Source: Pelobacter propionicus DSM 2379
GTDB taxonomy: Bacteria > Desulfobacterota > Desulfuromonadia > Geobacterales > Pseudopelobacteraceae
Assembly: GCF_000015045.1 (NCBI RefSeq)
Contig: NC_008609.1
Span: forward strand, 2,551,501 to 2,615,500
Length of the DNA stretch: 64,000 bases
Direction: 5' to 3'
Below, piece after piece: positions 28,281 through 41,840 of the stretch. How positions within the stretch are numbered: position 1 is the first letter of the stretch; each line of letters opens with the position of its first letter. Below the pieces are notes generated by a model that saw only the letters and a program-made list of their open reading frames with translations, did not search any database and was not told the origin of the DNA. The position numbers and the translations under genes were made by a program.

Positions 28281-29474
28281 ATGGCAGGATTATCGGCAGC
28301 AGTTGATTTGCAGCTCTTTGACAAACCGAAAAACGAGGGACGCATCGCCAAGAAGAGCGGTTCGAAAAAGCTCTACCTTGATTTCCATTATCATGGCGTT
28401 CGCATCGAGAAGAGCACCGGCCTCGATGACACCTTGGCAAACCGCCACAAGGCAGAGGCCATGCTGGAAAAAATTCTTGAGATGAAACGGGAAGGAACAC
28501 TTGAGTTTGCCAGGCTCTTTCCCGGCGCCAGCGAGTCGGAGAAGGAATTTCACACCCGGCTGGAAAAGGGGGAGTACTCCCCTACCCCGAAGGCGGTCAC
28601 GTTCAAGGCGTACGTTGCGAAATGGTACGCAACGCTCTGGGTAAACTATCCATCTGCGACGAAAAAGAAGGACTTCCAATCAGTGATCGATTACTGGCTG
28701 TTACCGTTCTTCGGTGACATGACCTTCCACCACATCACCGGTGTGACGTTGCAGGAGTTCATAGCCACCTTGAATCACCGGGAGGGGAAAAAAGTCGGGC
28801 AGCCCTTGGCCCGGTCAACCATGGTGAACATCCTCCAGATTTTCAGGACGATCTGGACCGATGCGGTGGTTGCGCATCGCTGGATGATCTTCGATCCCAT
28901 GATGGCCATCAAAAAGCATCTCCCCAAGAAGGGGAAAAAGAAGGTGGAGGTCTTCCGCTTCCATGAGTGGCAGGAGCTTCTCGCCGGCATGGATGCCAAT
29001 TACCGGCCGGTGGCGAAACTGATGGTCCTGACCGGGCTCATGGCGAGCGAGATAGCCGCTCTCAAGCCACGGCACATCCGGGATGGCCATCTGTACATCG
29101 AAGAGTCGATTGTCAGGAAGGTCGAAAAGGATGACTTGAAAACCAGTTACCGGGAAAGGAGGATTCCCATAACCGGGGCAATCGGTGAGATCCTCGACCA
29201 TGCCCTAAAAACGGCCCGGAGAGGATATCTTTTTACCATGGAGAACGGCAGTAACTTCTCGGCAGAGCTGTTTCAAAGACGGGTATGGGTCCCGGCCATG
29301 AAAGTGTCAGGAGTTTCTTACCGCAAGCCCTACTCCACCCGGCACACCTTTGCTGCTTGGGCCTTGGCTATCGACTGCGATCGGAACCGTCTTGTTGCTT
29401 TGATGGGACACGCAAGCAAGCAGATGTCAGGAGGCGCTGGCTTTGGCACTGTGGGCAAAGGATGCGGGATATAG
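28281..29474 (+). pseudogene. Tyrosine integrase truncated by the Mu-like element
   Basis: 397 codons remain. An N-terminal Arm-like DNA-binding part (KKLYLDFHYHGVRIEKSTGL) is followed by a core-binding domain (TFKAYVAKWYATLWVNYP) and a catalytic domain. The box I arginine is replaced (TGLMASEIAALK), as I recall in some relatives. SYRERRIPIT and YSTRHTFAAWAL with histidine and arginine are intact, and MGHASKQ is the last shared block. At 29425 the frame enters the Mu-like left end and finishes with unrelated SGGAGFGTVGKGCGI, so the active tyrosine is lost. It points toward tRNA-Gly, whose 3' end is the likely integration site of the island. Confidence 0.8.
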
Positions 29475-29626
29475 GCTATCGAGAGGGGATATATCGGGAA
29501 GGCCTTTGTTTGCGGGCGTTCGCGGAGACTCGTAGTCGAAGAACGAAACATTGACGATTTTTTGACGAGGCGGTCTGTTTGGCACAGAATCGGGGGATTC
29601 AAGGAGACGCGGCGGTCTGTTTGACT
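29425..29626 (+). promoter_or_regulatory. Left end with three transposase-binding sites (L1-L3)
   Basis: L1 29433-29448 GGCGCTGGCTTTGGCA, L2 29569-29584 GGCGGTCTGTTTGGCA, L3 29611-29626 GGCGGTCTGTTTGACT. All have the same direction. A gap of about 120 bases lies between L1 and L2, as in Mu, where HU bends the spacer. Confidence 0.75.
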
Positions 29627-29631
29627 CTAAA

Positions 29632-29871
29632 TTATTTCTTAGGCAACCGGATGACGACACCCGCGATCTTGTCCAGGTCACGCCCCCCGAGCTGCTTGGT
29701 GGAGGTGATCCGCTTGCCAAGTTTTTCATGCACAAAATTATACACAAAATTATAGAATTGGTCTTTATTCCACCCAAACGTATTCAGCGAGGTGTGATTT
29801 TTAGTGTGCCGGGGGTTGTGCCAGGCGGTATTTATGTCGCGGGTAAGTGTTTTTAGTTTTAGAAGTTTAGG
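29632..29871 (-). pseudogene. C-terminal fragment of an unrecognised protein
   Basis: An open frame without any ATG, GTG or TTG start encodes SLNTFGWNKDQFYNFVYNF, VHEKLGKRITSTKQLGGRD and LDKIAGVVIRLPKK before TAA. The composition is protein-like, but the family was not recognised. It lies inside the element between L3 and the repressor, in the repressor's direction, and appears to be a remnant. Confidence 0.45.
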
Positions 29872-29885
29872 TTACATACAGTTTA

Positions 29886-30491
29886 TTACATCTCAATTTT
29901 GTTGTGAAAAGCGTTTTCAGTAACCAAGCCCATAATGTGAGATAGTATATTGTACATATTGTCTAGGTTTAAGTCACTCAAAGTCCCTATAACGGTTTTT
30001 TCCATTACACATAGCAATCTAATAAACTTTTTTATTTCCTCGGTATCAACTTTAAACTTACCAGTTTCAGGTATTATTTCTTTAGAAAAAGCAAGGTACG
30101 TTATTAATACTATAATTATTTTTTCTTCCTTGGCTGGTCTAAGCTCTAAATCCTTGATGTACTCGTGTGTCGTTTTAACAATAGCCCTGTATAATTCCAC
30201 GCTATTTATTTTTTCTAAAATATTACAAGTATCTTTATTGAGATTATTATTCCTCTGAGTATCAGACAATACTCCTCCCCTCCTCATTTCCCCTTCACCA
30301 GTAGCAAGCCATTTAATTTCAACATCAGCGGCATCTGCAATGGCTATCAATTTATCAAGCCCCGGAAGCGATGACCCAGACAAATATTTGCGCAAAAGGC
30401 TTTCCGTTAATTCGCACTTTTTGGAAAAAGAATTGGTGGACTGATTACCAATTGCCAACTTCAATCTATCTGAAAAACCGTCTAATTTCAT
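29886..30491 (-). CDS. Phage repressor-like helix-turn-helix protein
   Basis: A 201-residue protein. Residues about 5-60 (FSDRLKLAIGNQSTNSFSKKC, TESLLRKYLSGSSLPGLDKL, WLATGEGEMRRGG) match the N-terminal DNA-binding domain of CI/Cro-type repressors, with the typical linker after the WLATGEG motif. The C-terminal part is helical and lacks a visible S24 protease site. It is divergent from the Ner-like gene across a 140-base control region, as expected for the lysogeny repressor. The gene is clearly AT-richer than the rest of the element. Start at 30491 (GAGG upstream); a longer frame to 30515 is possible. Confidence 0.75.
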   Translation of the reverse strand: MKLDGFSDRLKLAIGNQSTNSFSKKCELTESLLRKYLSGSSLPGLDKLIAIADAADVEIKWLATGEGEMRRGGVLSDTQRNNNLNKDTCNILEKINSVELYRAIVKTTHEYIKDLELRPAKEEKIIIVLITYLAFSKEIIPETGKFKVDTEEIKKFIRLLCVMEKTVIGTLSDLNLDNMYNILSHIMGLVTENAFHNKIEM

Positions 30492-30631
30492 TAACCTCAC
30501 CCCGTAGACCAGCATATAACAAAACCAAAAACCACCCCTAAAAGCAGTTTATTCGCACTTTTTTATTGACTGCTTCGCACTCTGGTGCTAAAAGCGTATT
30601 TATAAGACTGAGCGCGGAAGGAGATTAACAA
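30492..30631. promoter_or_regulatory. Divergent control region between repressor and Ner-like gene
   Basis: AT-rich region with the 13-base direct repeat ATTCGCACTTTTT (about 30549, and again inside the repressor gene at about 30409) and a related TTCGCACT at about 30574. TTGACT (about 30566) and TATTTATAAG (about 30598) are promoter-like for the rightward transcript, but the spacing is not ideal. The repeats are candidate repressor operators. Confidence 0.45.
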
Positions 30632-30835
30632 ATGGCATCTTCCAGGGCAATCAAAATCAAGGTTGCGCTCCTGCAAATGGGCAAAAAGCAGGCGGATATT
30701 GCCAGAGAATTGAATGTGACATCTGGGACTGTCTGCGATGTGATCAATGGCAGAAAAAAAAGTCGCCGTGTCATGGGCTACATCGAAGAACTCATCAAAT
30801 CGGAGAAGAGCCATGTTGAAGCCGCACACCGTTAA
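30632..30835 (+). CDS. Ner-like small helix-turn-helix regulator
   Basis: A 67-residue protein with a central helix-turn-helix (KKQADIARELNVTSGTVCDVINGRKKSRRV). The basic, short form and first position of the rightward operon suit a Ner/Cro-type regulator of early transcription in Mu-like phages. GGAAGGAG lies nine bases before the ATG. Confidence 0.75.
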   Translation: MASSRAIKIKVALLQMGKKQADIARELNVTSGTVCDVINGRKKSRRVMGYIEELIKSEKSHVEAAHR

Positions 30836-30953
30836 GAAGCTGGTAACGATGACGGAAGAATGCTGCCGCTTCCGCTGCGAAAAACCACAAATCGTTGCCA
30901 AACAGAACGCCGAAAAATGTCCTTTAGAAACGTTTTCCAAGGGACATTTCTAA
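30813..30953 (+). CDS. Small cysteine-containing protein (46 residues)
   Basis: It begins inside the end of the Ner-like gene with GGAGAAGAGCC before the ATG. The sequence MTEECCRFRCEKPQIVA contains a CC-x2-C cluster, with another cysteine near the end. No family recognised. The overlap with the upstream gene and a good ribosome site make it plausible, but its 3' end lies in a candidate operator region. Confidence 0.4.
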   Translation: MLKPHTVKKLVTMTEECCRFRCEKPQIVAKQNAEKCPLETFSKGHF

Positions 30954-30982
30954 AGGACAAAAAAAGTCTAAGGGACAAATTT
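30918..30982. promoter_or_regulatory. Operator-like cluster of GGACA motifs upstream of the transposase
   Basis: A 13-bp inverted repeat (TGTCCTTTAGAAA at 30918-30930 and TTTCTAAAGGACA at 30947-30959) is interleaved with AAGGGACA at 30939 and 30970. Four copies of an A-rGGACA unit within 65 bases look like a regulator-binding array. Whether Ner-like or repressor protein binds is unknown. Confidence 0.5.
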
Positions 30983-31012
30983 CAAAACGCTGAAATTACG
31001 AATGGTTACCCA

Positions 31013-33361
31013 ATGAACTACGATGAAGAGCATTATATCGATGTCAAAACTTTGGCAACAGCATGGCTCCCAGCCGATGCAACGACAGATGATCTTGTCA
31101 AAAAAATGGCATTAATAAAAAAAGCTATTCAAAGGGGCAAATTCGAATCCGCACGCCAGGTCACGGCTACCCAGGAGGATGGCCGCCCTTTAGGCCGTGG
31201 CGGCAAAATCTGGCAGATCAACATTGCCGACCCCGCCGTGCCTGTGGCCATCCGAATCAAGTGGTTCGACATCATGCTTGCAGTGCCGGAACAGCCGTCC
31301 CTGCCCGCCGTAGCCGCCGCGAACCTTCCTGTCGTTGCGCCCAAGTCCTTGACCGTTCCGGACACGCTGGAGCTGAACGGCAAACAGGAAAGGATCATCA
31401 CCGCCCGCTTCCAGCTCCTGCTGATGCTCGAAAACAGAGGGCCGGGCAAGAAGGTCATGCAGGCCGCCCGCGAGATAATCGACGCCATCAACGACTGCGC
31501 TGACAAACGACTGGTCAACATCGCCAAGGTGGCCAATGACCGCAAGGGGACAGAGCGCGGCCTGTCGCTGCGCACTCTGATGCGCTGGTGGAATACCTAC
31601 CAGAAAACCGGCAGGAAACAGAACGCCCTTGCGCCGGTCAAGGGGGATCGGATGCCGCGCAACGATCTTGTTGAATGGCTGCGGGATTACGCGCCCGGTA
31701 CCGCCGAACATACGGCCTTGCCGGTCTGCGTTCCAAGCTGGGTGCCGTACTTCCTGGACGAATACCGCCGCCCGCAAAAACCTTCCATGCAGGAGGCGTG
31801 GCGACAGATCAGTCGCACCATGCCGCCGGACATCGCGCGCCCGTCATACGATCAAGTCCGCCGCGTCATGAAGAAAGTGCCGGTCGTCCATAGCGAGAAG
31901 GGCCGCCGGACCGGGGCCGAATACAACAGCCTTCTGGGATACGTGGAGCGTGACGCCTCCGGTTTCGCCCCCATGTCCATCTGCCAGATTGACGGCCACA
32001 GCTTCAAGGCCTACGTGGCGCACCCCGTCACCGGGGCGCACTTCCACCCGGAAATCTGCGGCGTGATCTGCATGACGACAAAGGTTCTCGCCGGTTGGTC
32101 CGCCGGATTGGCCGAGAGCAACCAAACCGTTGGCGATGCCTACCGCCACGCCTGCACCGTCAACGAGAACAAACCCTGGGGCGGCGTTCCCGCCATCCTG
32201 GAAGCAGACCGGGGGGCCGGGAACATGGCCAAGGTGAACAGTGATGACTATATCGGGCTGTTCGCGCGGATCGGCACCACCTTCATCCCGCCGAAGCGAG
32301 GCGGCAATCCCCAGGGCCACGGGGCAATCGAACGGAGCAATCAAACCATCTGGATACGGGCGGCCAAGAGCCTTGTAACCTGCACCACAAAGGACATGGA
32401 TCGGGGCGCCCGGCGCAAGGTGTACGACCGCTTGGAGGCGGACCTGAAAGAGGTCAAAAAAGCCGGAAAACTGGGGATGGTTCCCAAAACCTCGGATTTG
32501 CTCATGTCCTGGCCCGAATTCCTGGAATTCCTGGACCGGGTTGCCCTGGAGTACAACAGCACCCCGCACAAGGCCTTGCAGAAGATCGTTGCCTCGCTGC
32601 CGGACAACCCGGACGGCCCGGCGGTCAGCCGTCACATGTCCCCTTTCGAATGCTGGGCTGATTACGTGGCGCAAGGGTTTGAGCCGGTCCATCCTGATGA
32701 CGTGATGCTGCACAAGCTCTTTGCTCCTCATGCCACCGTTACCGTCAAGCGGCAAAAGTTCACCCTGAACGGCAACAGCTATCACTCCCACGAACTGGAC
32801 GAATACCACGGCCAGCAGGTTGTTGTGTCTTACGACATCAACAATGCGCACACCGTCACCGTGTTCGATGCTGACGAAAACTTCATCTGCGAGGCGCGGT
32901 GGAACGGCAACCGGGTTCATGCCCGTCCGGTGCCGGAAGTGGAACAGGCAACCATGCAGCGACACAGCCGCCGCGTGAAGAACAAGGAAAAGCAGCTCGA
33001 CATGATGAATGCCGAACTCGACCGAAAAACCCTGGAAATCAGGCCGCTGGTCATGGAACTAGACCAGGCAACCATCGATTACGAGGCACGGGAAGAGCAG
33101 AAACGACAGGCGCAGTTGGCCGCCCCCAAGTACTTCAAAGACGAGCATGAGTTTTATAACGATGTCAGGGAACGGCAGCGGGAGGGGCTGGCCTCGGCAT
33201 ACGAAACACAGTGGGCCGATGACAAAGACGCCTCATACACAGGCCGGGGGCATGTAGGGCTGTTCAAGTCAGATCGGTATTGCGAAGGGAGGTTTAAACC
33301 TGAAAACAAGCTGCAACCAATGGAAAAAGCCGCCGGTGCTACCAACACCAGCGGCCTTTGA
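31013..33361 (+). CDS. MuA-like DDE transposase
   Basis: About 782 residues from the ATG at 31013. The N-terminal domain (YIDVKTLATAWLPADATTDD, IKKAIQRGKFESARQV) matches the Mu-type winged-helix DNA-binding domain. Catalytic residues appear at about D327 (CQIDGHSF), D399 (LEADRGAGN) and E440 (GHGAIERSNQTIW). A beta-barrel-like domain and a helical tail (to 33361) follow, as in MuA and its B-protein contact region. It cuts the ends and joins them to target DNA, moving the element by replicative transposition. The frame is open back to 30860, so starts at 30860 or 30917 are possible; they lie before the recognisable domain and cross the operator cluster. Confidence 0.9.
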   Translation: MNYDEEHYIDVKTLATAWLPADATTDDLVKKMALIKKAIQRGKFESARQVTATQEDGRPLGRGGKIWQINIADPAVPVAIRIKWFDIMLAVPEQPSLPAVAAANLPVVAPKSLTVPDTLELNGKQERIITARFQLLLMLENRGPGKKVMQAAREIIDAINDCADKRLVNIAKVANDRKGTERGLSLRTLMRWWNTYQKTGRKQNALAPVKGDRMPRNDLVEWLRDYAPGTAEHTALPVCVPSWVPYFLDEYRRPQKPSMQEAWRQISRTMPPDIARPSYDQVRRVMKKVPVVHSEKGRRTGAEYNSLLGYVERDASGFAPMSICQIDGHSFKAYVAHPVTGAHFHPEICGVICMTTKVLAGWSAGLAESNQTVGDAYRHACTVNENKPWGGVPAILEADRGAGNMAKVNSDDYIGLFARIGTTFIPPKRGGNPQGHGAIERSNQTIWIRAAKSLVTCTTKDMDRGARRKVYDRLEADLKEVKKAGKLGMVPKTSDLLMSWPEFLEFLDRVALEYNSTPHKALQKIVASLPDNPDGPAVSRHMSPFECWADYVAQGFEPVHPDDVMLHKLFAPHATVTVKRQKFTLNGNSYHSHELDEYHGQQVVVSYDINNAHTVTVFDADENFICEARWNGNRVHARPVPEVEQATMQRHSRRVKNKEKQLDMMNAELDRKTLEIRPLVMELDQATIDYEAREEQKRQAQLAAPKYFKDEHEFYNDVRERQREGLASAYETQWADDKDASYTGRGHVGLFKSDRYCEGRFKPENKLQPMEKAAGATNTSGL

Positions 33362-33403
33362 GACACCCCGTGCGATGGGGACATTACCAGGAGGAAAAAT
33401 ACC

Positions 33404-34159
33404 ATGAGACACGTAATGGCAACAACCAAAAACATGCGCAAGTTCATGCAAGCCGTTGACGATCTCCTTTCCCGACCCATGGGAACGGAAGGGATGGGCT
33501 TGCTCTGGGGCGCACCCGGCGAAGGCAAGAGCACGGCGGTTGCCCGTGTGTGCGATCAGTTCAACGGCATCTATGTCCGGGCCGTGGGCTGCTGGACCGT
33601 TACCAGCATGCTGGGCGACCTCTGCCGGGAGCTGGGCGGAGACCGCAAATTGAGGCGGAAGGACATGATTGAGTTCATCGTGTACGAGCTGAAAAAGGAC
33701 AACTGCACCCCGCGTCCCATTTTTATCGACGAGGCTGATTACTGCTTTCGGCAATTTGACATGGTGGACGCCCTGCGGGACATCTACGACCTCTCCGGCT
33801 GCCCGGTGATCATGATCGGCATGGAGGATATCGCCAAAAAAATCAAAACGAATGCCCGAATTGCACGCAGAATCACGCAATGGGTTGAGTTCAAGGGGCT
33901 TGACCTGGAGGACGTGAAAACAGTTGCCCGCGAATGCTGCGAAGTGGAGATAAGCAGTGATTTGGCCATCCACCTGCACAAGGAATGCAACGCCAACATC
34001 GGGCGGGTAATCATCGGCCTGACGAAGATCGAAAAGCAGGCAAAGACAAGCGGTCTGACAGTGATGGATTGCGCCGCCTGGGGGAATAAGCCGCTGTACT
34101 ACGATCAGCCGTCATTCTCGCGACGGAGTAAAAACGGTAGCGGGGAGGAAAACAGGTAA
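33404..34159 (+). CDS. MuB-like AAA ATPase (target capture)
   Basis: A 251-residue ATPase with Walker A GAPGEGKSTAV and Walker B RPIFIDEADY, followed by IGMEDIAKKI and RRITQWVEF typical of the TniB/MuB group. In Mu, the B protein binds target DNA in an ATP-dependent manner and activates the transposase. It lies 42 bases downstream of the transposase with GGAGG before ATG, as in Mu-like phages. The C-terminus ends in a basic, serine-rich stretch. Confidence 0.88.
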   Translation: MRHVMATTKNMRKFMQAVDDLLSRPMGTEGMGLLWGAPGEGKSTAVARVCDQFNGIYVRAVGCWTVTSMLGDLCRELGGDRKLRRKDMIEFIVYELKKDNCTPRPIFIDEADYCFRQFDMVDALRDIYDLSGCPVIMIGMEDIAKKIKTNARIARRITQWVEFKGLDLEDVKTVARECCEVEISSDLAIHLHKECNANIGRVIIGLTKIEKQAKTSGLTVMDCAAWGNKPLYYDQPSFSRRSKNGSGEENR

Positions 34160-34542
34160 TGAGGAATTTCATCGCCCGCCCCTGCATGAGGCAGCGAATA
34201 TGGAGTGCAATGAGGATCATGACCCGCTTCACCATCCCCGACCTGTGCCGGGTGGTGGAAGGCGCTACTACCGCCAACGTGCAAAGCTACGTCAGCAGAC
34301 TGCACAAGGAAGGGTACGTCGGCAAGATTGGCAAGGTGCGCCGGGGCTATGCCGGGGAATACCAGGGCTATCAACTTGTTAAAAACACCGGCCCGACCAT
34401 GCCGGTTCTTTTGAAGGGCCGCCACAAAAAAGAATCTGAAACAGAAAGACAAACCGGGAAAGAAACAGAAGAACAGATTGAAATTCAGACTGTGAGACAA
34501 AACCGGGGGCTATTGCCACGGGAAACGGGAGCCTTGCCATGA
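34159..34542 (+). CDS. Winged-helix-like protein of the early operon
   Basis: A 127-residue protein. Residues 20-75 (MTRFTIPDLCRVVEGATTAN, VQSYVSRLHKEGYVGKIGKV) have the pattern of a winged helix that binds DNA. The C-terminus is rich in Glu, Lys and Gln. The ATG overlaps the previous stop by one base (TAATG). Role unknown; many Mu-like phages carry such small regulators here. Confidence 0.6.
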   Translation: MRNFIARPCMRQRIWSAMRIMTRFTIPDLCRVVEGATTANVQSYVSRLHKEGYVGKIGKVRRGYAGEYQGYQLVKNTGPTMPVLLKGRHKKESETERQTGKETEEQIEIQTVRQNRGLLPRETGALP

Positions 34543-34859
34543 TGACCAGAAAAAAACGGTTGCAGCTCCTTGCGGAAATGTGCCTCAAGCATGGTCAGGC
34601 CGAAGTTGCCCGGCGGATCGGCAAGAGCGACAGTGCCGTGAGTCAGATTCTTTCCGGTGCGTACCAGGCCAACCCGGACGGTATTTTACAAAGGGTTGAA
34701 GAGGTCTTTGGAACAACCCTCGTTGCCTGTCCGGTGCTGGGTAGCATCCTCCTGGGAGTGTGCGCCGAAAAGCGAAAGCTGCCCTTCGCGGCGACGAATC
34801 CGCGCCGGGTTCAACTCTATGCGGCTTGCAAAGACTGCAAGGAAAGGGGGGTACTGTGA
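34539..34859 (+). CDS. Helix-turn-helix protein with C-terminal CxxC
   Basis: A 106-residue protein. RLQLLAEMCLKHGQAEVARRIGKSDSAVSQILSGAY is a Cro-like helix-turn-helix. A C-terminal YAACKDCKERG may bind metal together with upstream cysteines. It starts four bases inside the previous gene (ATGA). Second potential DNA-binding protein in a row. Confidence 0.65.
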   Translation: MMTRKKRLQLLAEMCLKHGQAEVARRIGKSDSAVSQILSGAYQANPDGILQRVEEVFGTTLVACPVLGSILLGVCAEKRKLPFAATNPRRVQLYAACKDCKERGVL

Positions 34860-35251
34860 TGACACCGGAAGAAACAACCAGACAGGCCGGTCTTATCGTG
34901 GCCTCGTTGCAGGGGTTGAGCCAGCGTGAAGCCTTGGCGATACTTGCCCGTGCCATGACAAGCGTTCTTGAACATCATGCGCCGGGACGGGAAGAGTTCG
35001 ACCAGCCATGCCCCACCGTCAACCCCTACCTTCGCCGGAAGCCCTCCGGACAGGTCGGCATCATTGACAGCGACCTGGAGATGAAAGCCTTTCTTCACCG
35101 TCTGGGGGACGAATACCGGACCATCGGCCAAATCCGACAGATGCTTATTACAACGTTCGGCGCGAAGCGCGCGCCGTCTGAAAGTTCAATTCATCGCTAC
35201 CTGCAAAAGATAGCCAGACAGCAGGATGTGAACCAGGAGGGGAGAAAATGA
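34859..35251 (+). CDS. Conserved early-region protein, unknown function
   Basis: A 130-residue protein starting at the ATG of a TGATG junction with the previous gene. The first half is helical (GLIVASLQGLSQREALAILAR). The second half (EMKAFLHRLGDEYRTIGQIRQ, RAPSESSIHRYLQKIARQ) looks like a helix-turn-helix. No family assigned with confidence. Confidence 0.55.
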   Translation: MTPEETTRQAGLIVASLQGLSQREALAILARAMTSVLEHHAPGREEFDQPCPTVNPYLRRKPSGQVGIIDSDLEMKAFLHRLGDEYRTIGQIRQMLITTFGAKRAPSESSIHRYLQKIARQQDVNQEGRK

Positions 35252-35640
35252 ATCTACCGGGAATTGCAAAACATACAGGTTTTACTCACACTCCGCCCGA
35301 AGGTCGCTTCTTGCGCCGTATCTGTGAAAGCGACTGCATGGAGCCGCACATCTATAGCGGTGACGTAGTGGTGATAGACACCGAAGTCCGCAACATAAAC
35401 GAGGGAGTCTTCATGCTCCACTTCGGTGGCTCCGACCAATTCAAACGGTTGCAACCGGTCGGCGACAATGCCGTGAACGTCATCTGCGACAACCCGCACT
35501 ATGGAAACGAGGCCTGCGCATCCGAAGTGTTGAAGCCCTTGATTGTCGGGCGTGTCGTGGCAATAACCCGCATGGAGCGGACCAGCCTTTTCGAAAAGCT
35601 CGTTCACCAGATGCTCAACCATGGGGAGGTGATGGCATGA
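35248..35640 (+). CDS. Stand-alone S24 (LexA/CI-like) peptidase domain
   Basis: A 130-residue protein that corresponds only to the C-terminal protease domain of LexA/CI repressors. The nucleophile serine is in CESDCMEPHI (about residue 28), and GDVVVIDT follows. The base lysine is in FKRLQPVG (about residue 67), and IVGRVVAITR is the usual last strand. There is no DNA-binding domain, and the separate repressor at 29886 lacks an S24 site. It may be a partner-type regulator sensing RecA filaments or a UmuD-like protein (inference). It overlaps the previous gene by four bases. Confidence 0.7.
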   Translation: MNLPGIAKHTGFTHTPPEGRFLRRICESDCMEPHIYSGDVVVIDTEVRNINEGVFMLHFGGSDQFKRLQPVGDNAVNVICDNPHYGNEACASEVLKPLIVGRVVAITRMERTSLFEKLVHQMLNHGEVMA

Positions 35641-35762
35641 AGATCATTCGCGAGTTGATTGACGCTTTGACCAGGCTGGAGACAACTTTGATCCGGCGCA
35701 GGGCGGCGCGACGGGCGACCTGTGCCGCCTGCCGCATGGTGCTGAATGGCTGTCGGGGGTAA
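35637..35762 (+). CDS. Tiny arginine- and cysteine-containing protein (41 residues)
   Basis: Starts at an ATGA overlap with the S24 gene, with GGAGG eight bases upstream. The sequence ends RRAARRATCAACRMVLNGCRG, giving a CxxC pair plus another cysteine. Function unknown. The translational coupling supports it despite its length. Confidence 0.5.
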   Translation: MKIIRELIDALTRLETTLIRRRAARRATCAACRMVLNGCRG

Positions 35763-35883
35763 TTGTAAATGTCCATTAAACCAATGAGCAAAAGCTACTT
35801 AAGGAGCGCCATATTACGGGAGCTTCCGGGGGGTAAGTGTTGGCAAGATAGATCAGCAACCAAGCAGAGAGGAGAGCGAAAAA

Positions 35884-36420
35884 ATGGCACACGCGAAAAG
35901 AACGGCAAGGCCGATAACGGCGGCCCAGATCAAACGGATACACACCCAACTTCACATTCTGGGGGTGTCTGACGAAAACTACCGGGCGGCGCTGGAAAGC
36001 CGTTTCGGTGTCACCACCTGCAAAGACTTGACCCTGGCACAAGCCAAGTCTTTCATTGATGAACTTCAGGAACTGGCGCACAAAACGGACCAGGAGCGAT
36101 ACAGCCGGGAGCGGGCCGCCGCCCGTGCCAGGGCCGAAGCCGGCACGCCGAAGCGCTTTGACGAACTGGACAACCGCCCCGGCATGGCATCGGCGGCGCA
36201 GCTCCGCAAGATCGAGGCAATGTGGACAGACATCAGCGATGTTCCCGACCCGGCGGCCCGTGCCCGCGCCCTGCGGCGCTTCCTTCTGAGGATTGCCAAG
36301 GTCTCCGACCTCCGTTTCTTGGACGATCAGATGGCGGGGTGGGTCATCAATGCCTTGAACGTCATGAAACACCACAAGGAGGGTGGCGGGGAAGAAGCGA
36401 AGCCGAAAAAAGCCCGCTGA
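35884..36420 (+). CDS. gemA: GemA/Gp16-family regulator of Mu-like phages
   Basis: A 178-residue protein. The first 60 residues (TAAQIKRIHTQLHILGVSDE, NYRAALESRFGVTTCKDLTL, AQAKSFIDEL) and the later part (MASAAQLRKIEAMWTDIS, ALRRFLLRIAKVSDLRFLDD) are the diagnostic blocks of the Mu Gp16 (GemA) family. GemA affects host gene expression and DNA topology in Mu. AGGAGAGCG precedes the ATG. It confirms Mu-like ancestry independent of the transposase. Confidence 0.88.
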   Translation: MAHAKRTARPITAAQIKRIHTQLHILGVSDENYRAALESRFGVTTCKDLTLAQAKSFIDELQELAHKTDQERYSRERAAARARAEAGTPKRFDELDNRPGMASAAQLRKIEAMWTDISDVPDPAARARALRRFLLRIAKVSDLRFLDDQMAGWVINALNVMKHHKEGGGEEAKPKKAR

Positions 36421-36589
36421 GGGGTTTGGGGGTATCAAGACGGAGGCGTGTATGGGGTAGCAGCCACGAGGCCTGTGAGCGAAGAGTTAAACGCCAGTTA
36501 AATGCTATTTCGGGGTAAGCAGCTACTGCGCGGGTCAATGATAGGGCTGTGGAAGCAGTTGGATTTAGCATCATCCTTTGGGGGGAAAC

Positions 36590-36853
36590 ATGAGTGAAAA
36601 GGTGAAAGTACGGATACAGACTTCATGTGTCGTGAAATACGACCAAATTGTAGAAATGACTCGTGACGCCTGGGAAAAATTGAAACTTACTCCAGAAAAA
36701 AAGATGGAATGCCAAAGCTTTAGTCCAATATCTGAGCTATTGGACTTGGCAGATGTGCTTGATTGGAGCGATTACGATGAACCTGAATTGACGGTTGTTG
36801 ATGACTACGGTAAGCCACTGCTGCCAATAGACTTCTATTGCCCTGAGAATTGA
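36590..36853 (+). CDS. Hypothetical protein (87 residues)
   Basis: An acidic small protein (SPISELLDLADVLDWSDYDE) without a recognised family. GGGGGGAAAC precedes the ATG at 36590. The region between gemA and this gene (170 bases) contains nothing recognisable. Base use is AT-richer than gemA. Confidence 0.5.
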   Translation: MSEKVKVRIQTSCVVKYDQIVEMTRDAWEKLKLTPEKKMECQSFSPISELLDLADVLDWSDYDEPELTVVDDYGKPLLPIDFYCPEN

Positions 36854-36948
36854 TTGTTAGGTGGAGCAACAAGGGCGGGGTAGATGCCTCGCCCTTTTCT
36901 ATATCCGGGGGGACTCCGGAGAAGATCGAAAGTGGAGGAATGAACAGC

Positions 36949-37161
36949 ATGGCACGGAAAACCCCGCTCACTTTGTATGACCGCTATTGCCAGGCATGGC
37001 GGTTCCTGTTCTGTTGCCTTGAAGTAGCCGCCGGGTTGCCGTTTCTGATGGCTGGTCTCCTGCTTCAGTTTGTACGGGAATGGTTTTTTATCGGCTACGA
37101 CCTTTATGACTTTCTGAAAGAAATCGGCCAAGGGCCGAAACGAAAAGGAGCGAATCATTGA
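36949..37161 (+). CDS. Small membrane protein
   Basis: A 70-residue protein with one hydrophobic helix (FLFCCLEVAAGLPFLMAGLLL) between charged ends. The start at 36949 has GGAGG at the right distance; an ATG at 36940 is too close to it. It overlaps the next, lipoprotein-like gene. The position and pairing recall lysis or spanin-like gene pairs, but a holin function is not shown. Confidence 0.55.
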   Translation: MARKTPLTLYDRYCQAWRFLFCCLEVAAGLPFLMAGLLLQFVREWFFIGYDLYDFLKEIGQGPKRKGANH

Positions 37162-37349
37162 AGATTCTTGCATGTGTTCTCATGGCCCTGCTGTTCGGCC
37201 TATCCTCCTGCGGTCGCCTCGAATCACCCACAGTGGGCATGCGCCCAAGCTTCCACAATGCCAGTTCAAATTATTGGGGCTATCTGGAGACAATCAGAAC
37301 AAGCCCCGCTGAGATCATCCCCGGTGAAACCATGCTGGATGTACCATGA
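37158..37349 (+). CDS. Small lipoprotein
   Basis: A 63-residue protein starting with TTG at 37158 (AGGAG upstream). A short signal peptide ends in the lipobox LFGLSSCG, so the mature protein would be about 45 residues on the cysteine lipid anchor. It overlaps the membrane-protein gene by four bases. It could be an outer-membrane spanin subunit remnant or a cell-surface factor. Confidence 0.6.
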   Translation: MKILACVLMALLFGLSSCGRLESPTVGMRPSFHNASSNYWGYLETIRTSPAEIIPGETMLDVP

Positions 37350-37654
37350 GCGGAGAAACGATGAATCCTGAAACCAGACGACGCACCCCCCTGGAACTGT
37401 ATCGCTCCATCTGGATCAGCCTTGAAATCTTCCGCCAGGCAACCGCCGAGGAGATTACCACCGTTACCCCCGGCGCGTCATACCGGGCAATCCGGGCGGC
37501 TCTCCGTCGGTTGGAAACCCACGGCTACGTCACGAAACAGGGCAACCGAAAGGCGGTCTACCTCAAGGCCGTCAAAAGCCTGTACCTGCACGGCGACTGC
37601 GAGCGCTGCGGCGCTTCGCTTTCCGCAACAACCTGCGATTTTACCAATCAATAA
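37346..37654 (+). CDS. Winged-helix protein with CxxC
   Basis: A 102-residue protein. RQATAEEITTVTPGASYRAI and RAALRRLETHGYVTKQGNRK form a winged helix. HGDCERCGASLSATTC near the end may bind zinc. It resembles the protein at 34159 in plan. Translation may start at 37346 (ATGA overlap) or at the ATG at 37361, which has GGAGA upstream. Confidence 0.55.
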   Translation: MSGETMNPETRRRTPLELYRSIWISLEIFRQATAEEITTVTPGASYRAIRAALRRLETHGYVTKQGNRKAVYLKAVKSLYLHGDCERCGASLSATTCDFTNQ

Positions 37655-37861
37655 GCCATCTATAAGCCCACCTAAAATAGCCTTCACTCCCGGCGCGCAC
37701 CGCCCAATATGGCGGTGCGCATCTCCCCTCCCGTAGTCCCTCCCCTGCATTTAGTAAACTCGTTTATCAGCTTTTTAACGGTGAAATTGGTAGGACTGGG
37801 GCAGGAAGTAAAACACTTTGTTTCTTGCCGCCACCAGGGGCCGCCCGTGCAACAGCTCGCC

Positions 37862-38491
37862 ATGATACAACCCGCTCCTGACCCTTACGCCGCATGGCTG
37901 GCGGCAAACGCTGTCGCCTACTGCCAGCGGATGAGGGCCACCATCACACATACCGCTTGTGCTGAAAACAAGCAACGCTCCGACCAGGCATGCGGGGATA
38001 ATCGTTGTCGCTTCTGCGACGGTCTGGACGACCAGGCCGGGCCGGTCCCGGAGCACCAGCCAGAAATAATCCCGGATACATGTTTTCCCGAGGTTGTTGA
38101 CGGGCCGCCCGTCGCGGACCTTGCTGACGATGCGCTCGTCAAGGGGATTGACGTCGAACCGCCCGCGCGGATCGGCGCGACGGTGATGGATGACGTGGAA
38201 ATGGAAGAACTGCTTTCCGAGCTGTTCGGCGATGAAGGCAGCGAGGATGAGGATGAAGAACGGGGGGAACAGCGGCGCGTGGTCTACCTCGACGATCCGC
38301 CAGAAAGACGGCAATCCGTTCCGGTCTATATCGGGCGCTGTCGCCGCTGTGGGGGGTACATGCTCAACGCCCTGGAACGGCACGACGGTATTATTGATGA
38401 CGATGTGTATCGCTGTTTCTCGTGTGGCTGGAGAACGTCGAAGACATACGAAACCAACCGGATATTGGCGGCAAAGGGGGTGATGCCTTGA
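37862..38491 (+). CDS. Zinc-ribbon protein upstream of the Mor-like gene
   Basis: About 209 residues. Residues 1-30 (DPYAAWLAANAVAYCQRM) are helical, a cysteine cluster CRFCDG follows, and the middle is strongly acidic (EELLSELFGDEGSEDEDEER). The C-terminus is a clear zinc ribbon (CRRCGGYML...YRCFSCGWRT). No catalytic domain seen. The exact start is uncertain because the frame is open to 37709 and no strong ribosome site precedes 37862. The next gene starts within its last codons. About 210 bases before it (37655-37861) appear empty. Confidence 0.5.
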   Translation: MIQPAPDPYAAWLAANAVAYCQRMRATITHTACAENKQRSDQACGDNRCRFCDGLDDQAGPVPEHQPEIIPDTCFPEVVDGPPVADLADDALVKGIDVEPPARIGATVMDDVEMEELLSELFGDEGSEDEDEERGEQRRVVYLDDPPERRQSVPVYIGRCRRCGGYMLNALERHDGIIDDDVYRCFSCGWRTSKTYETNRILAAKGVMP

Positions 38492-39276
38492 CTCATGGAA
38501 AAAATGGCAAATTGGTTGAATTTCTCATCCTCGAAGCGGTCGCCCTGCTTGAGCGTCACGGAGAGGATGCAAAAACGGCACGTCGTGGAGCTGATGCTTT
38601 TGTGGAGCGGTTGCGGTGCATTATCGGTGGCATTCAGATTTACATACCCTCTGGGCCGTGTGAAAGAAAAGTCAATATCCGAGAAGAGGTTAATAACGGC
38701 GAATCCATTGAAGACCTTGCTAAACGGCACGGCCTTTCAATGATGCGGATTTATCAGATCATCAAGACCACTGCCGGGAAAACCGCGCCCACAAAGCAGA
38801 AAGGCGACATTCAAGCAATCGTCATTGAGGTTGCCCGGATGCTGATAATTCACGGCGTGAGACCGAAAGACGCAGCCCAAGCGGCAGGCGGTTTCATCTC
38901 CATTCTTACCGCGCGTTTTGGACAACAGTACGTATACGTTTCAAAAGGTATGCGTGACAAAGTTTCTGAAAAAAAACGACAAATTATCAGCCAATACCGG
39001 GCGGGAACGCCAGTCAGCACAATCGCGGAAAACTTCGGAACGACTTCCGCATGGGTAGGAAATATCATTAAGGAACAAGGTGAAATCAGTCCACGTCAAA
39101 AACGTTCCGCAATGACGCTCTCTCGCTTGAAAAAGAGCATCCTGGACGCGGCTCCCCCGTATCGCAGGGGTCAGCCAAACGAGGAAGTCTACGGCCTGCT
39201 CATGACCGCCGCCGATGCGGTGGAGCAGGCACGGACAATAGCAACAGGGAAGTCAACGTCAGATCGAAAGGAATGA
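38488..39276 (+). CDS. mor: Tandem Mor-domain transcription activator
   Basis: A 262-residue protein with two consecutive Mor-like domains. Copy 1 spans about 38505-38770 (GADAFVERLRCIIGGIQIYI then ESIEDLAKRHGLSMMRIYQI). Copy 2 spans about 38815-39080 (AAGGFISILTARFGQQYVYV then TPVSTIAENFGTTSAWVGNI). Each has the dimer strand followed by a helix-turn-helix. Mu Mor has one such domain and acts as a dimer to activate the middle promoter. The chosen start is TTG at 38488, preceded by GGGGGTG and overlapping the previous stop by four bases. A tail of about 60 residues follows. Confidence 0.75.
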   Translation: MTHGKNGKLVEFLILEAVALLERHGEDAKTARRGADAFVERLRCIIGGIQIYIPSGPCERKVNIREEVNNGESIEDLAKRHGLSMMRIYQIIKTTAGKTAPTKQKGDIQAIVIEVARMLIIHGVRPKDAAQAAGGFISILTARFGQQYVYVSKGMRDKVSEKKRQIISQYRAGTPVSTIAENFGTTSAWVGNIIKEQGEISPRQKRSAMTLSRLKKSILDAAPPYRRGQPNEEVYGLLMTAADAVEQARTIATGKSTSDRKE

Positions 39277-40403
39277 CCACCATGGATTTACTGAATCAGG
39301 ACTACACCCTGGAGCTAAACAGGGATGCAACAGGCAAGGCCCCCACCGAAATTGAACTGATACCGCGTGAAGGGCAGATAATAGGGCGGGACGGGCGAAG
39401 CTGGCTGAACGATCAGCCGCGTACAATCATCAGTTATTTTGACCAGAACGGCGTGAAATTGCCGATTGACTTGGAGCATTCGACACATCAAAAGGCCCCC
39501 AATGGCGACCCCGCCCCGGCTGTGGGCTGGATACTCAAACTCTACCAGAACCCCTACGGGGCAGTTTGGGGAACCGTCGAATGGAACAACCAAGGCCGGG
39601 AGCTGATCGAGTCCAAGATATACCGGTATATTTCCCCGGTATTCACCTATGACCGCTCCACAATGAGCATTGTCAAACTTGTCTCCGCCGGACTTACCAA
39701 CCGGCCAAACCTTTTTCTTCAAGCGCTGAACAGGGTGGATACATCCTTGCCGCATTACCCCTTTGCCGCAAACAGCGTCTATTCTCCGCCGGTTCCTGCG
39801 CCCCATACTTTGTCCGCCCAAGACACGAAGATATGCAACATGATGGGAATCGACCCTCACGCCTATATTCAGGCGAACGCTGACAACCTGTCCCGGCCCC
39901 CTTTGGTGGCAGCGAACAGCTACGAGCCGCCATCGGCCCATGGATTGGGGAGAGAAGAGCTGAAAATCATCGAAAAAATGGGGCTCGATGTACATGAATA
40001 CATCGCGGCAAACGCCAGCCGTGCAACAAGCTACGCGCCCATTTCGGTGAACAGCCAGCGGCCGGGCGCGTCCATGGGGTTGAGCAACGATGAACTGCGG
40101 GTGTGTAAATTAACCGGGGTGTCTCCCCTTGACTACTTGGTAACGGCGGCCCGTGAACAATCCACGGGACTGAATCGGCAAAACAAAAACCTTGAAGCAC
40201 TTGAGGCCCAAATTGCCGAACTTATGGGCATTCCTTTGCATGATATTCAGAAAAGAAAAGACCAAGTGACCAAACGAGGGGCGGCTATGGACGCTGTAAG
40301 CGAAAAATTGTCTGATGAGGAAATAGAAATTTGTTGGGCGATGGGAATCTCTCCCTCCGATTACAAAAAAAAGAAAAGTGAAGCTATTTTAAACCAGTTG
40401 TGA
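39273..40403 (+). CDS. Mu I-like phage protease with repeated C-terminal motif
   Basis: A 376-residue protein. The first 160 residues (IELIPREGQIIGRDGRSWLN, LPIDLEHSTHQKAP, PAVGWI, RYISPVFTYD, VSAGLTNRPNL) match the Mu I prohead protease. The C-terminal half holds a motif of the form E-x2-I-x3-MGI-x3-Y five times (near 39815, 39955, 40085, 40210, 40310; the fourth is degenerate). In Mu the I gene encodes protease and scaffold together with capsid genes, but no capsid gene is here. The ATG overlaps the Mor stop; an ATG three codons later has better ribosome-site spacing. Confidence 0.8.
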   Translation: MTTMDLLNQDYTLELNRDATGKAPTEIELIPREGQIIGRDGRSWLNDQPRTIISYFDQNGVKLPIDLEHSTHQKAPNGDPAPAVGWILKLYQNPYGAVWGTVEWNNQGRELIESKIYRYISPVFTYDRSTMSIVKLVSAGLTNRPNLFLQALNRVDTSLPHYPFAANSVYSPPVPAPHTLSAQDTKICNMMGIDPHAYIQANADNLSRPPLVAANSYEPPSAHGLGREELKIIEKMGLDVHEYIAANASRATSYAPISVNSQRPGASMGLSNDELRVCKLTGVSPLDYLVTAAREQSTGLNRQNKNLEALEAQIAELMGIPLHDIQKRKDQVTKRGAAMDAVSEKLSDEEIEICWAMGISPSDYKKKKSEAILNQL

Positions 40404-40425
40404 CAACACACGAAGGAGTAACAGC

Positions 40426-41379
40426 ATGCAGGAAACCCTAAACGCCATGGAACGAATTACCCAAAAACGCCAACTTGTAGCCCGAATTGCGGCAATCGAG
40501 ACCCGCTTGTCGGACCACCAGCTTTCCAATCTGACGACCTTGAGCAGGGGAATTGCTGATGCCAAAAACCATCTTGATTCTCTGGTCACCGAAAAGTCCG
40601 GCGCACAGCGTGATGTCGCGCAAGTCCGATATGATGAGCTGGTCAAACAAATGCGTGACGGGCAGCAGGAGCGGGATAATCTTCTGAAGGAACGGGATCA
40701 GCGACAGCAGGAACTTGAACGGTTCGACCACAGCATTACGTTGGCCGAGATCAAGGAGCAGACCGCAAAGCTTCTTGCTGCCGAGGGCACCGTTTCTTCC
40801 CTGGACAGCACCATCGAATATCAGCGCTCATTCATCATGGCAGCCGACAATGTTTCAGGCCCCACTGATCTTCTTAGGCAGAAAGAAGACCTCTTGGCGG
40901 ATGCAGCTACCGGCAAGAACGTAGCCAAAAGACTGGAGACCATTGAAGCCAAGATCAAGGAGTATGAGCAGAGCTGTTCGGAATTGACCAATCAAGCCAG
41001 GAACGCGGAGCAGGCAATAGCCGGACTGGAACGACGCCGAGCTGAAGCCGAGAAGGTGGTAAGAGCGGAAAGAACAGACCTTGATGAAATGCTCATATTC
41101 CGTTTCAAATCGGAATTACAGACGGCTTACAGTGACTTTATAACGGCTGGAAAATTGCTGGCTGAAAGGTTCCGGCGGGTTGCTGCCCTCGACACTCTTG
41201 TTGCGGAAACATCCCACGGGCGGGAAAAAAGCATACTCAATGCCACTGCAAACGCTTACCGTATCCTCGATATTACCAAAAATGCGGACGGGTTCATCTT
41301 TGATGCGAGGGATGAAAACCCCACGCAATGGGCAGCCCTGGAACGAGAACGGCAAACCGTCGCCGGAGTTCCCCTGTAG
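40426..41379 (+). CDS. Long coiled-coil protein, unknown function
   Basis: A 317-residue protein that is nearly all heptad-rich helix (residues about 1-220, for example MRDGQQERDNLLKERDQRQQ and RRRAEAEKVVRAERTDLDEM). A final 90-residue part (LAERFRRVAALDTLVAETSH) looks folded. GAAGGAG lies six bases before the ATG. It sits where scaffold and capsid genes are expected after the protease. It could be an unrelated cargo gene or a scaffold-like protein; no family is recognised. Confidence 0.65.
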   Translation: MQETLNAMERITQKRQLVARIAAIETRLSDHQLSNLTTLSRGIADAKNHLDSLVTEKSGAQRDVAQVRYDELVKQMRDGQQERDNLLKERDQRQQELERFDHSITLAEIKEQTAKLLAAEGTVSSLDSTIEYQRSFIMAADNVSGPTDLLRQKEDLLADAATGKNVAKRLETIEAKIKEYEQSCSELTNQARNAEQAIAGLERRRAEAEKVVRAERTDLDEMLIFRFKSELQTAYSDFITAGKLLAERFRRVAALDTLVAETSHGREKSILNATANAYRILDITKNADGFIFDARDENPTQWAALERERQTVAGVPL

Positions 41380-41390
41380 AACGGTTCATG

Positions 41391-41433
41391 CCTGGAACTC
41401 CCCGAGATAGGCAGACCATAGGGGAGTTCCAGG
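41391..41433. terminator. 13-bp hairpin after the last gene of the element
   Basis: CCTGGAACTCCCC at 41391-41403 and the exact complement at 41421-41433, with a 17-base loop. GGAGTTCCCC also occurs shortly upstream (about 41366). It begins 12 bases past the coiled-coil stop; there is no T run. Confidence 0.5.
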
Positions 41434-41534
41434 AGCGCCGCTTTAATGGAAGGTGAGGCGGCGCTGGTCTTTCGCCATGGTTTGCCAGGGGCACAGCCCG
41501 AGAGACTCCGGCTATGTGCCGCCAATCGGGCAAA

Positions 41535-41572
41535 CAGAAAGGCCACTTACCGGACGGTGAGTGGCCTTTCTG
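41535..41572 (+). terminator. Intrinsic terminator at the end of the element
   Basis: CAGAAAGGCCACT (41535-41547) pairs with AGTGGCCTTTCTG (41560-41572). The inner ACC/GGT pairs extend the stem. It is the last strong hairpin before the right-end binding sites. Confidence 0.6.
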
Positions 41573-41602
41573 TCAAACAACTGACACGTTTTTTTAAATC
41601 GA

Positions 41603-41669
41603 TGCCAAACAGAGCGCCTACAAATGCCAAACAGAGCGCCGCGTTACACAAACCACACGCCGGTTTACA
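41603..41669 (-). promoter_or_regulatory. Right end with three transposase-binding sites (R3-R2-R1)
   Basis: R3 41603-41618 and R2 41625-41640 are identical (GGCGCTCTGTTTGGCA on the minus strand). R1 41646-41661 is a weaker match (GGCGTGTGGTTTGTGT). They are spaced 21-22 bases apart. Reading inward the end is TGTAAACC then GGCG, the same offset as the left end (TGTCAGGA then GGCG). Confidence 0.75.
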
Positions 41670-41721
41670 GATTTCATATTTTTATTACAACACCAACTAC
41701 AACACGGGCCATTTTTGACAC

Positions 41722-41762
41722 AAAAAAAGAGGTTAGCCGATCTAGCTAACCTCTTGTTTTTG
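41722..41762 (-). terminator. Terminator of tRNA-Gly
   Basis: AAGAGGTTAGC (41727-41737) pairs with GCTAACCTCTT (41745-41755), followed on the minus strand by a run of T. It also blocks transcription from the element toward the tRNA. Confidence 0.75.
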
Positions 41763-41765
41763 TTA

Positions 41766-41840
<75 letters not shown>

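Follow-up and report, generated by a model that had tools for sequence, protein, structure and literature searches.

Within a 64,000-nucleotide stretch of the Pelobacter propionicus DSM 2379 genome (hereafter the window), at positions 2,551,501-2,615,500 of contig NC_008609.1, we found a 12,224-bp element that belongs to a family of small transposable elements of the Mu type. We give a probability of about 0.6 to the reading that these elements behave as phage satellites of a Mu-like helper and that the head- or tail-size genes they carry remodel this helper. We judge it a little better than even that they form a widespread satellite class, which would combine Mu-type replicative transposition, head-size and tail-length genes of its own, a p260-Mor core and exchangeable transposition modules, and whose members would live as parasites of Mu-like phages. 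The family comprises some 23 distinct elements, each 11-17 kb in size and marked by a gene (p260) located beside that of the Mor-type activator, and was found in Geobacterales genomes, in two other metagenome-assembled genomes (MAGs) and in IMG/VR. The elements are conserved and relatives of the window element have moved in the past, genes are kept under selection, and transposase residues as well as ends are intact. Like known satellites, the family lacks a full particle gene set yet is conserved as a unit.

Searches with MuA and with the coiled-coil protein CC alone recovered few relatives, several of which display the same gene order p163, GemA, p260, Mor, I and CC. A single-protein MuA query of genome contigs and a CC query of viral contigs gave no matches. 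Searches with p260 alignments succeeded and returned nine, later twelve, IMG/VR loci and five contigs from named genomes; a p260 search of 141 genomes of the order gave nine strong matches. An earlier, narrower p260 profile had found the window alone among 395 genomes across the phylum. After removal of duplicates the 23 elements are the window element, L049, L051-L062 (with L059 also standing for L050), L083, L084, L085 (together with L086), L087, L088 and L103-L106, and the named relatives of the window genome belong to the Geobacterales (Geobacter, Geomonas). p260 is present in every member used and adjoins Mor. Neither p260 nor CC had a match in 50,697 phage records, p260 had none in 72,556 plasmid records, and a near-identity search of the phage records with the window element returned nothing. 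Weak p260 matches in ordinary prophages concerned chiefly the N-terminal part. The Cys motif of this part was also seen in 170-214-aa proteins of ordinary prophages (L107-L110), and the C-terminal zinc-ribbon portion seems to be confined to the small elements.

An earlier note on this DNA, made from its letters, had read the element as a mobile mini-Mu or satellite and not as a decayed prophage. This reading is supported because relatives that share the core genes and have ends of their own occupy different positions in other genomes, which excludes an occurrence at one site only, because one of these relatives has an empty counterpart site, and because no relative was found in which the window site holds a complete late region.

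Past movement is recorded in the five relatives for which both ends are available. Exact target duplications flank L104 (11,171 bp, GGAGA), L105 (14,408 bp, GAACG), L059 (14,538 bp, TCTGTT) and L085 (16,867 bp, CATCGG); the 4-bp match GTAT around L049 (12,064 bp) is weaker alone. The empty site of L104 was identified in the sister species G022, 92% identical across the junction, as an intact 564-codon gene that reads as a serine recombinase. For L061, from a Nitrosomonadales MAG, a target duplication was not seen and the flanks are odd and overlap, and this element was left out of the movement evidence. Its flanks (1-160 and 12613-12794) look like the same part of glycosyltransferase-like genes with differing sequences, which may reflect either an assembly mixture or two related genes. 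Automatic end scans of L058, L060 and L106 gave no convincing end pair. Of the six elements whose two ends are defined, four have a tRNA gene no more than about 220 bp from the right end (window, 41766-41840; L085, 17308-17383; L104, 5863-5938; L105, 14615-14690), and the window copy and L104 both interrupt recombinase genes of islands. The tRNA proximity and the insertions into recombinase genes suggest a target preference.

We analyzed selection by comparing the window element with L049, its closest relative. The ratio of nonsynonymous to synonymous substitution rates (dN/dS) was 0.15 for MuA, 0.08 for MuB, 0.24 for p127, 0.29 for p260, 0.35 for Mor, 0.25 for I and 0.34 for CC. Ratios of 0.08-0.35 indicate that selection has acted to maintain both copies since their divergence.

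The p260/GemA/Mor core is joined to several transposase types. MuA and MuB resembling those of the window element are encoded by L049 (87% and 94% identical, respectively) and L061, a DDE_2 Mu transposase together with another AAA protein by L058 and L106, and rve-like types by L055 and L057 as well as by L084 and L105. A TniA-like transposase of about 570 aa with an AAA partner is found in L051, L052, L054, L056, L059, L060, L062, L085, L087, L088 and L103. The catalytic residues D, D and E are kept in all nine family transposases that were aligned, and in the window protein this triad lies in the motifs QIDGHSF, ADRGAG and GAIERSN. Separately, a 530-634-aa IS630-like DDE_3 protein was observed as the last gene before the right end in L052, L055, L059, L060, L062, L083, L087, L104 and L106; in L059 and L104 the target duplications enclose this gene, which therefore belongs to the element.

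Each element carries few particle genes, namely those for the protease, the C-terminal part of I, the coiled coil, the major capsid protein, the tape measure, and the baseplate hub or gpG. The I protease is present in the window element, L049 and L057 and is fused to CC in L062, and the C-terminal part of I stands alone in six other elements. CC homologs occur in 14 elements including that of the window. The major capsid protein was found in L051, L054, L056, L084, L088, L103 and L105 (PF25209, best 4e-50; phrog_3922, 9e-65 for L105) and the tape measure in L054-L057, L059, L083, L085, L103 and L105. L052 encodes a Mu gpP-like hub with relatives in L057 and L087, the latter of which also encodes gpG. 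When the 75 frames of the five both-ended relatives were compared with PHROGs and Pfam, no terminase, portal, sheath or lysis family was among the 25 commonest families listed, and none of their unassigned frames appears to have the length needed to encode a portal or large terminase.

The window element extends from 29425 to 41648 on the plus strand, with the ends TGTCAGGAGGCGCTGGCTTTGGCA and, inverted, TGTAACGCGGCGCTCTGTTTGGCA, as defined by a left 12-mer common with L049 and an exact stop of the right alignment. The left end had been correctly placed: TGTCAGGAGGCG is exactly common to the window element and L049, whose flanks show the junction. The right end, previously put at 41669, was corrected to 41648 because the alignment with L049 stops exactly there at both right ends. 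The right terminus ...GCGTTACA (ends at 41648) is the mirror of the left TGTCAGG. The inverted multi-site ends typical of Mu-like phages are present. Three sites per end had been proposed, which holds for the left end (L1, 29433-29448, 3 mismatches to the end repeat; L2, 29569-29584, exact; L3, 29611-29626, 2 mismatches; all plus strand) but not for the right end, where we found two, both exact and on the minus strand (R2, 41603-41618; R1, 41625-41640). The pattern GGCGNTCTGTTTGGCA matched seven times compared to 2.5 matches expected and none of 100 shuffles reached seven, placing the end repeats above chance. A scan with this pattern also located an exact internal copy (30896-30911, minus strand) upstream of the likely muA start, which is a possible internal enhancer or operator. 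A strong, terminator-like inverted repeat, seen as a self-inverted match, lies near the right end (41534-41573). The element is present as one copy in its own genome.

The repressor, Ner-like, MuA-like, MuB-like, GemA, Mor and I-like protease genes listed in the earlier note were all borne out by Pfam or PHROG matches, and all frames of the element are open. A CI-type repressor of 209 aa (29886-30515, minus strand; PF07022, 1.9e-5; phrog_3037) is followed by genes on the plus strand, starting with a Ner-like regulator of 67 aa (30632-30835; phrog_1468, 7e-11) and the MuA-type transposase (31013-33361; phrog_310, 7e-112; PF09299, 6e-19). The muA frame is open from 30860, and 31013 is the more likely start as the resulting 782 aa match the relatives; a single-sequence search with this protein gave no match in the PDB. 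Downstream are the MuB-type AAA ATPase of 251 aa (33404-34159; phrog_296, 6e-47), the regulator-like p127 (34159-34542; phrog_2030), a helix-turn-helix (HTH) protein of 106 aa (34539-34859; PF01381, phrog_2119), a member of the p163 family of about 130 aa read from the ATG at 34859 (34859-35251) and an S24 peptidase-like protein (35248-35640; PF00717). p163 is common to many family members and, like the S24 peptidase-like gene, absent from L049. GemA (35884-36420; PF06252, 2e-27) precedes four small genes of unknown function (91, 103, 63 and 102 aa; 36578-37654) and the marker p260 (37862-38491), which carries the N-terminal Cys motif and a C-terminal zinc-ribbon motif and whose structure model is poor (mean predicted local distance difference test score, pLDDT, of 62).

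The Mor-type late activator of 284 aa (38422-39276; phrog_532; PF08765, 3e-20) is matched in two stretches. It is followed by the Mu I protein, composed of the protease and C-terminal repeats (376 aa, 39273-40403; PF10123, 3e-41; phrog_328), which matches I of a full Mu-like prophage at 34% over 354 aa, and by CC (317 aa, 40426-41379). CC is predicted to form long helical hairpins (mean pLDDT 85), and its family matches are weak coiled-coil-like tail proteins with E-values of 0.002 or worse. The element had been described as devoid of particle genes. Indeed, Pfam and PHROG scans of the window element detected no terminase, portal, capsid, tail or lysis family above threshold, but the description is too strong because gene I is a head-morphogenesis gene and CC is fused to a protease domain in L062. 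The same scans recognised no site-specific integrase, primase or AlpA-type module inside the window element.

The left end of the element cuts the C-terminal part of an island tyrosine integrase (28281-29424, plus strand; PF00589), which breaks off after LMGHASKQM. An intact homolog (433 aa, 76% identical) ends beside tRNA-Gly in G026, and at the window site a tRNA-Gly(CCC) gene (41766-41840, minus strand) is located 118 bp from the right end. The missing integrase end was not found right of the element, and 41649-41765, including the first ~70 bp (41649-41717), is unmatched in the sequences compared. The window copy has no target duplication, the five-base flanks being GCAGA and CAAAC. As the integrase end is missing at the right and the flanking bases differ, we conclude that the element entered the integrase gene and that the right side was later lost or rearranged. 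Mu-type transposition can cause adjacent deletions, and a plain deletion is an equally possible cause of the lost flank. Because target duplication and flank are lost, the window copy may be unable to move any longer. One other genome of the genus was searched, that of a sister species, and there the corresponding tRNA-Gly is accompanied by the broken remnant of a related element (L042 13405-14777, G001:C166; MuA pieces on contigs C94, C62 and C166). This remnant retains the end of MuA, MuB (79% identical), p127 and the right end and is devoid of GemA to CC. Either an old shared insertion may have decayed there, or a second insertion may have occurred at a favoured place.

We found several links between family members and Mu-like prophages. 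L049 interrupts a p127-like early-region gene of a full Mu-like prophage, and the contig also bears a Mu portal. MuB, HTH, DUF3164-like, GemA, Mor, amidase, portal, I and tail genes of this prophage lie on both sides, several of these names coming from reading the sequence and not from a family search. L085/L086 is located beside another Mu-like prophage, and the tape measures are 54% identical over 713 aa (1181 vs 1246 aa). In addition, the hub of the prophage that carries L049 shares 46% identity with that of L052 and 55% with that of L057. These nearby prophages are possible helpers, and their presence is support, not proof.

We propose the following life cycle. As long as the repressor is active, the element would remain silent in the chromosome. 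Upon failure of the repressor or entry of a Mu-like phage, MuA and MuB would copy the element by replicative transposition, and the Mor-type activator would then switch on its few particle genes. The kept genes would mostly fit a role in head size (protease/scaffold, capsid) or tail length (tape measure), and the versions of the element might replace or compete with those of the helper. The helper would supply terminase, portal, tail and lysis proteins, and the satellite of 11-17 kb would be packed together with a small amount of host DNA, probably into small heads. A helper would be needed because nothing recognised in the element packs DNA or lyses the cell. The redirectors CpmB and Rcm of Staphylococcus aureus pathogenicity islands (SaPIs) are helical scaffold mimics whose action results in small heads (PMC12409344). 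By analogy, CC, which adjoins or is fused with the protease, could act in the same way.

A number of observations weigh against the satellite reading. We infer packaging by a helper, and neither packaging nor induction nor helper dependence was seen. Particle genes are almost absent from L104 and L106. The window genome was found to contain neither a further MuA nor a Mu portal and holds no Mu-type helper, and among the seven other element-bearing cellular genomes a Mu portal was matched, partially, in G043 only. No packaging site common to L049 and its host prophage was found, the prophage ends being undefined on the contig. IMG/VR contigs are selected for being virus-like, and the neighbouring prophages may therefore reflect a selection bias. 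The view of CC as a scaffold rests on its position and its fusion to the protease, and a structure search with CC gave generic coiled-coil matches alone, none of them with an E-value below 0.001.

The odd single structural genes and the window genome without a helper would also suit an unpackaged Mu-derived transposon whose particle genes serve as anti-phage weapons, poisoning head or tail assembly of an entering Mu-like phage and thereby protecting the host. Interference with assembly is described as a defence in two reports (PMC10884400, PMC11364771). We regard such a weapon as unlikely, if by no means negligible. A resident transposon has no obvious need of the lytic-type regulation that is kept here, with Ner, GemA and Mor before the particle genes, and the wide distribution of the family, together with its several transposase types, points to efficient horizontal transfer, although neither point is decisive. 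Alternatively, a mobile family might have lost packaging long ago and persist as a passenger on the islands or phages it jumped into. The position of L049 in a Mu-like prophage, of the window copy and L104 in island recombinase genes and of several elements beside tRNA genes is in line with this idea, which we nevertheless hold to be very unlikely, as purifying selection on I and CC demands another use.

We give hardly any weight to simple decay of a Mu prophage through one deletion that removed the lysis-to-head and tail genes. The order Mor-I does correspond to that of Mu once the intervening and following genes are taken out, the window copy has no target duplication, and the sister species carries a broken related remnant at the corresponding tRNA-Gly. 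However, some 23 elements show this reduced plan at separate sites and with separate ends, which contradicts decay for the family, the window genes are all open with dN/dS well below 1, and the coiled-coil family is absent from the phage records.

The family shares with Mu and Mu-like transposable phages (saltoviruses) the repressor, Ner, MuA/MuB, GemA, Mor, I and inverted multi-site ends, and two MuA-type relatives have 5-bp duplications as Mu-like phages do. Unlike these phages, its members measure 11-17 kb and are devoid of terminase, portal, lysis and a full head and tail set, and p260 and CC were not found in the phage collection. P4 and phage-inducible chromosomal islands (PICIs) including SaPIs resemble the family in size, in the missing particle set and in the restricted carriage of assembly genes. 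P4 has about one third the size of P2, and the 11-17 kb of the family likewise correspond to about a third of a Mu-like genome. To our knowledge, known phage satellites use site-specific integrases. In contrast to P4 and PICIs, the family uses DDE transposases, and no primase/AlpA-type module was recognised in the window element. The Pseudomonas satellite AH14b (16.8 kb), which is packaged with a larger prophage (PMC4936722), is similarly small and without structural, terminase and lysis genes, but has a P4-like integrase, AlpA and a primase and no transposase. In the case of helper-embedded PICIs, an integrase-based satellite lies inside a late gene of its helper prophage (PMC10111431). L049 likewise interrupts a Mu-like prophage gene, but it arrived by transposition and the gene is in the early region. 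Phage satellites are thus already known and the cited ones are integrase-based; a partial literature search found no description of Mu-type or transposable phage satellites.

If the satellite reading is true, satellite life would have evolved from transposable phages too, and Mu-like phages would join the helpers exploited by satellites. Members with different single head- or tail-size genes would then represent natural test cases for particle-size change. What genome annotation labels as a short ‘defective Mu prophage’ may be an intact element.

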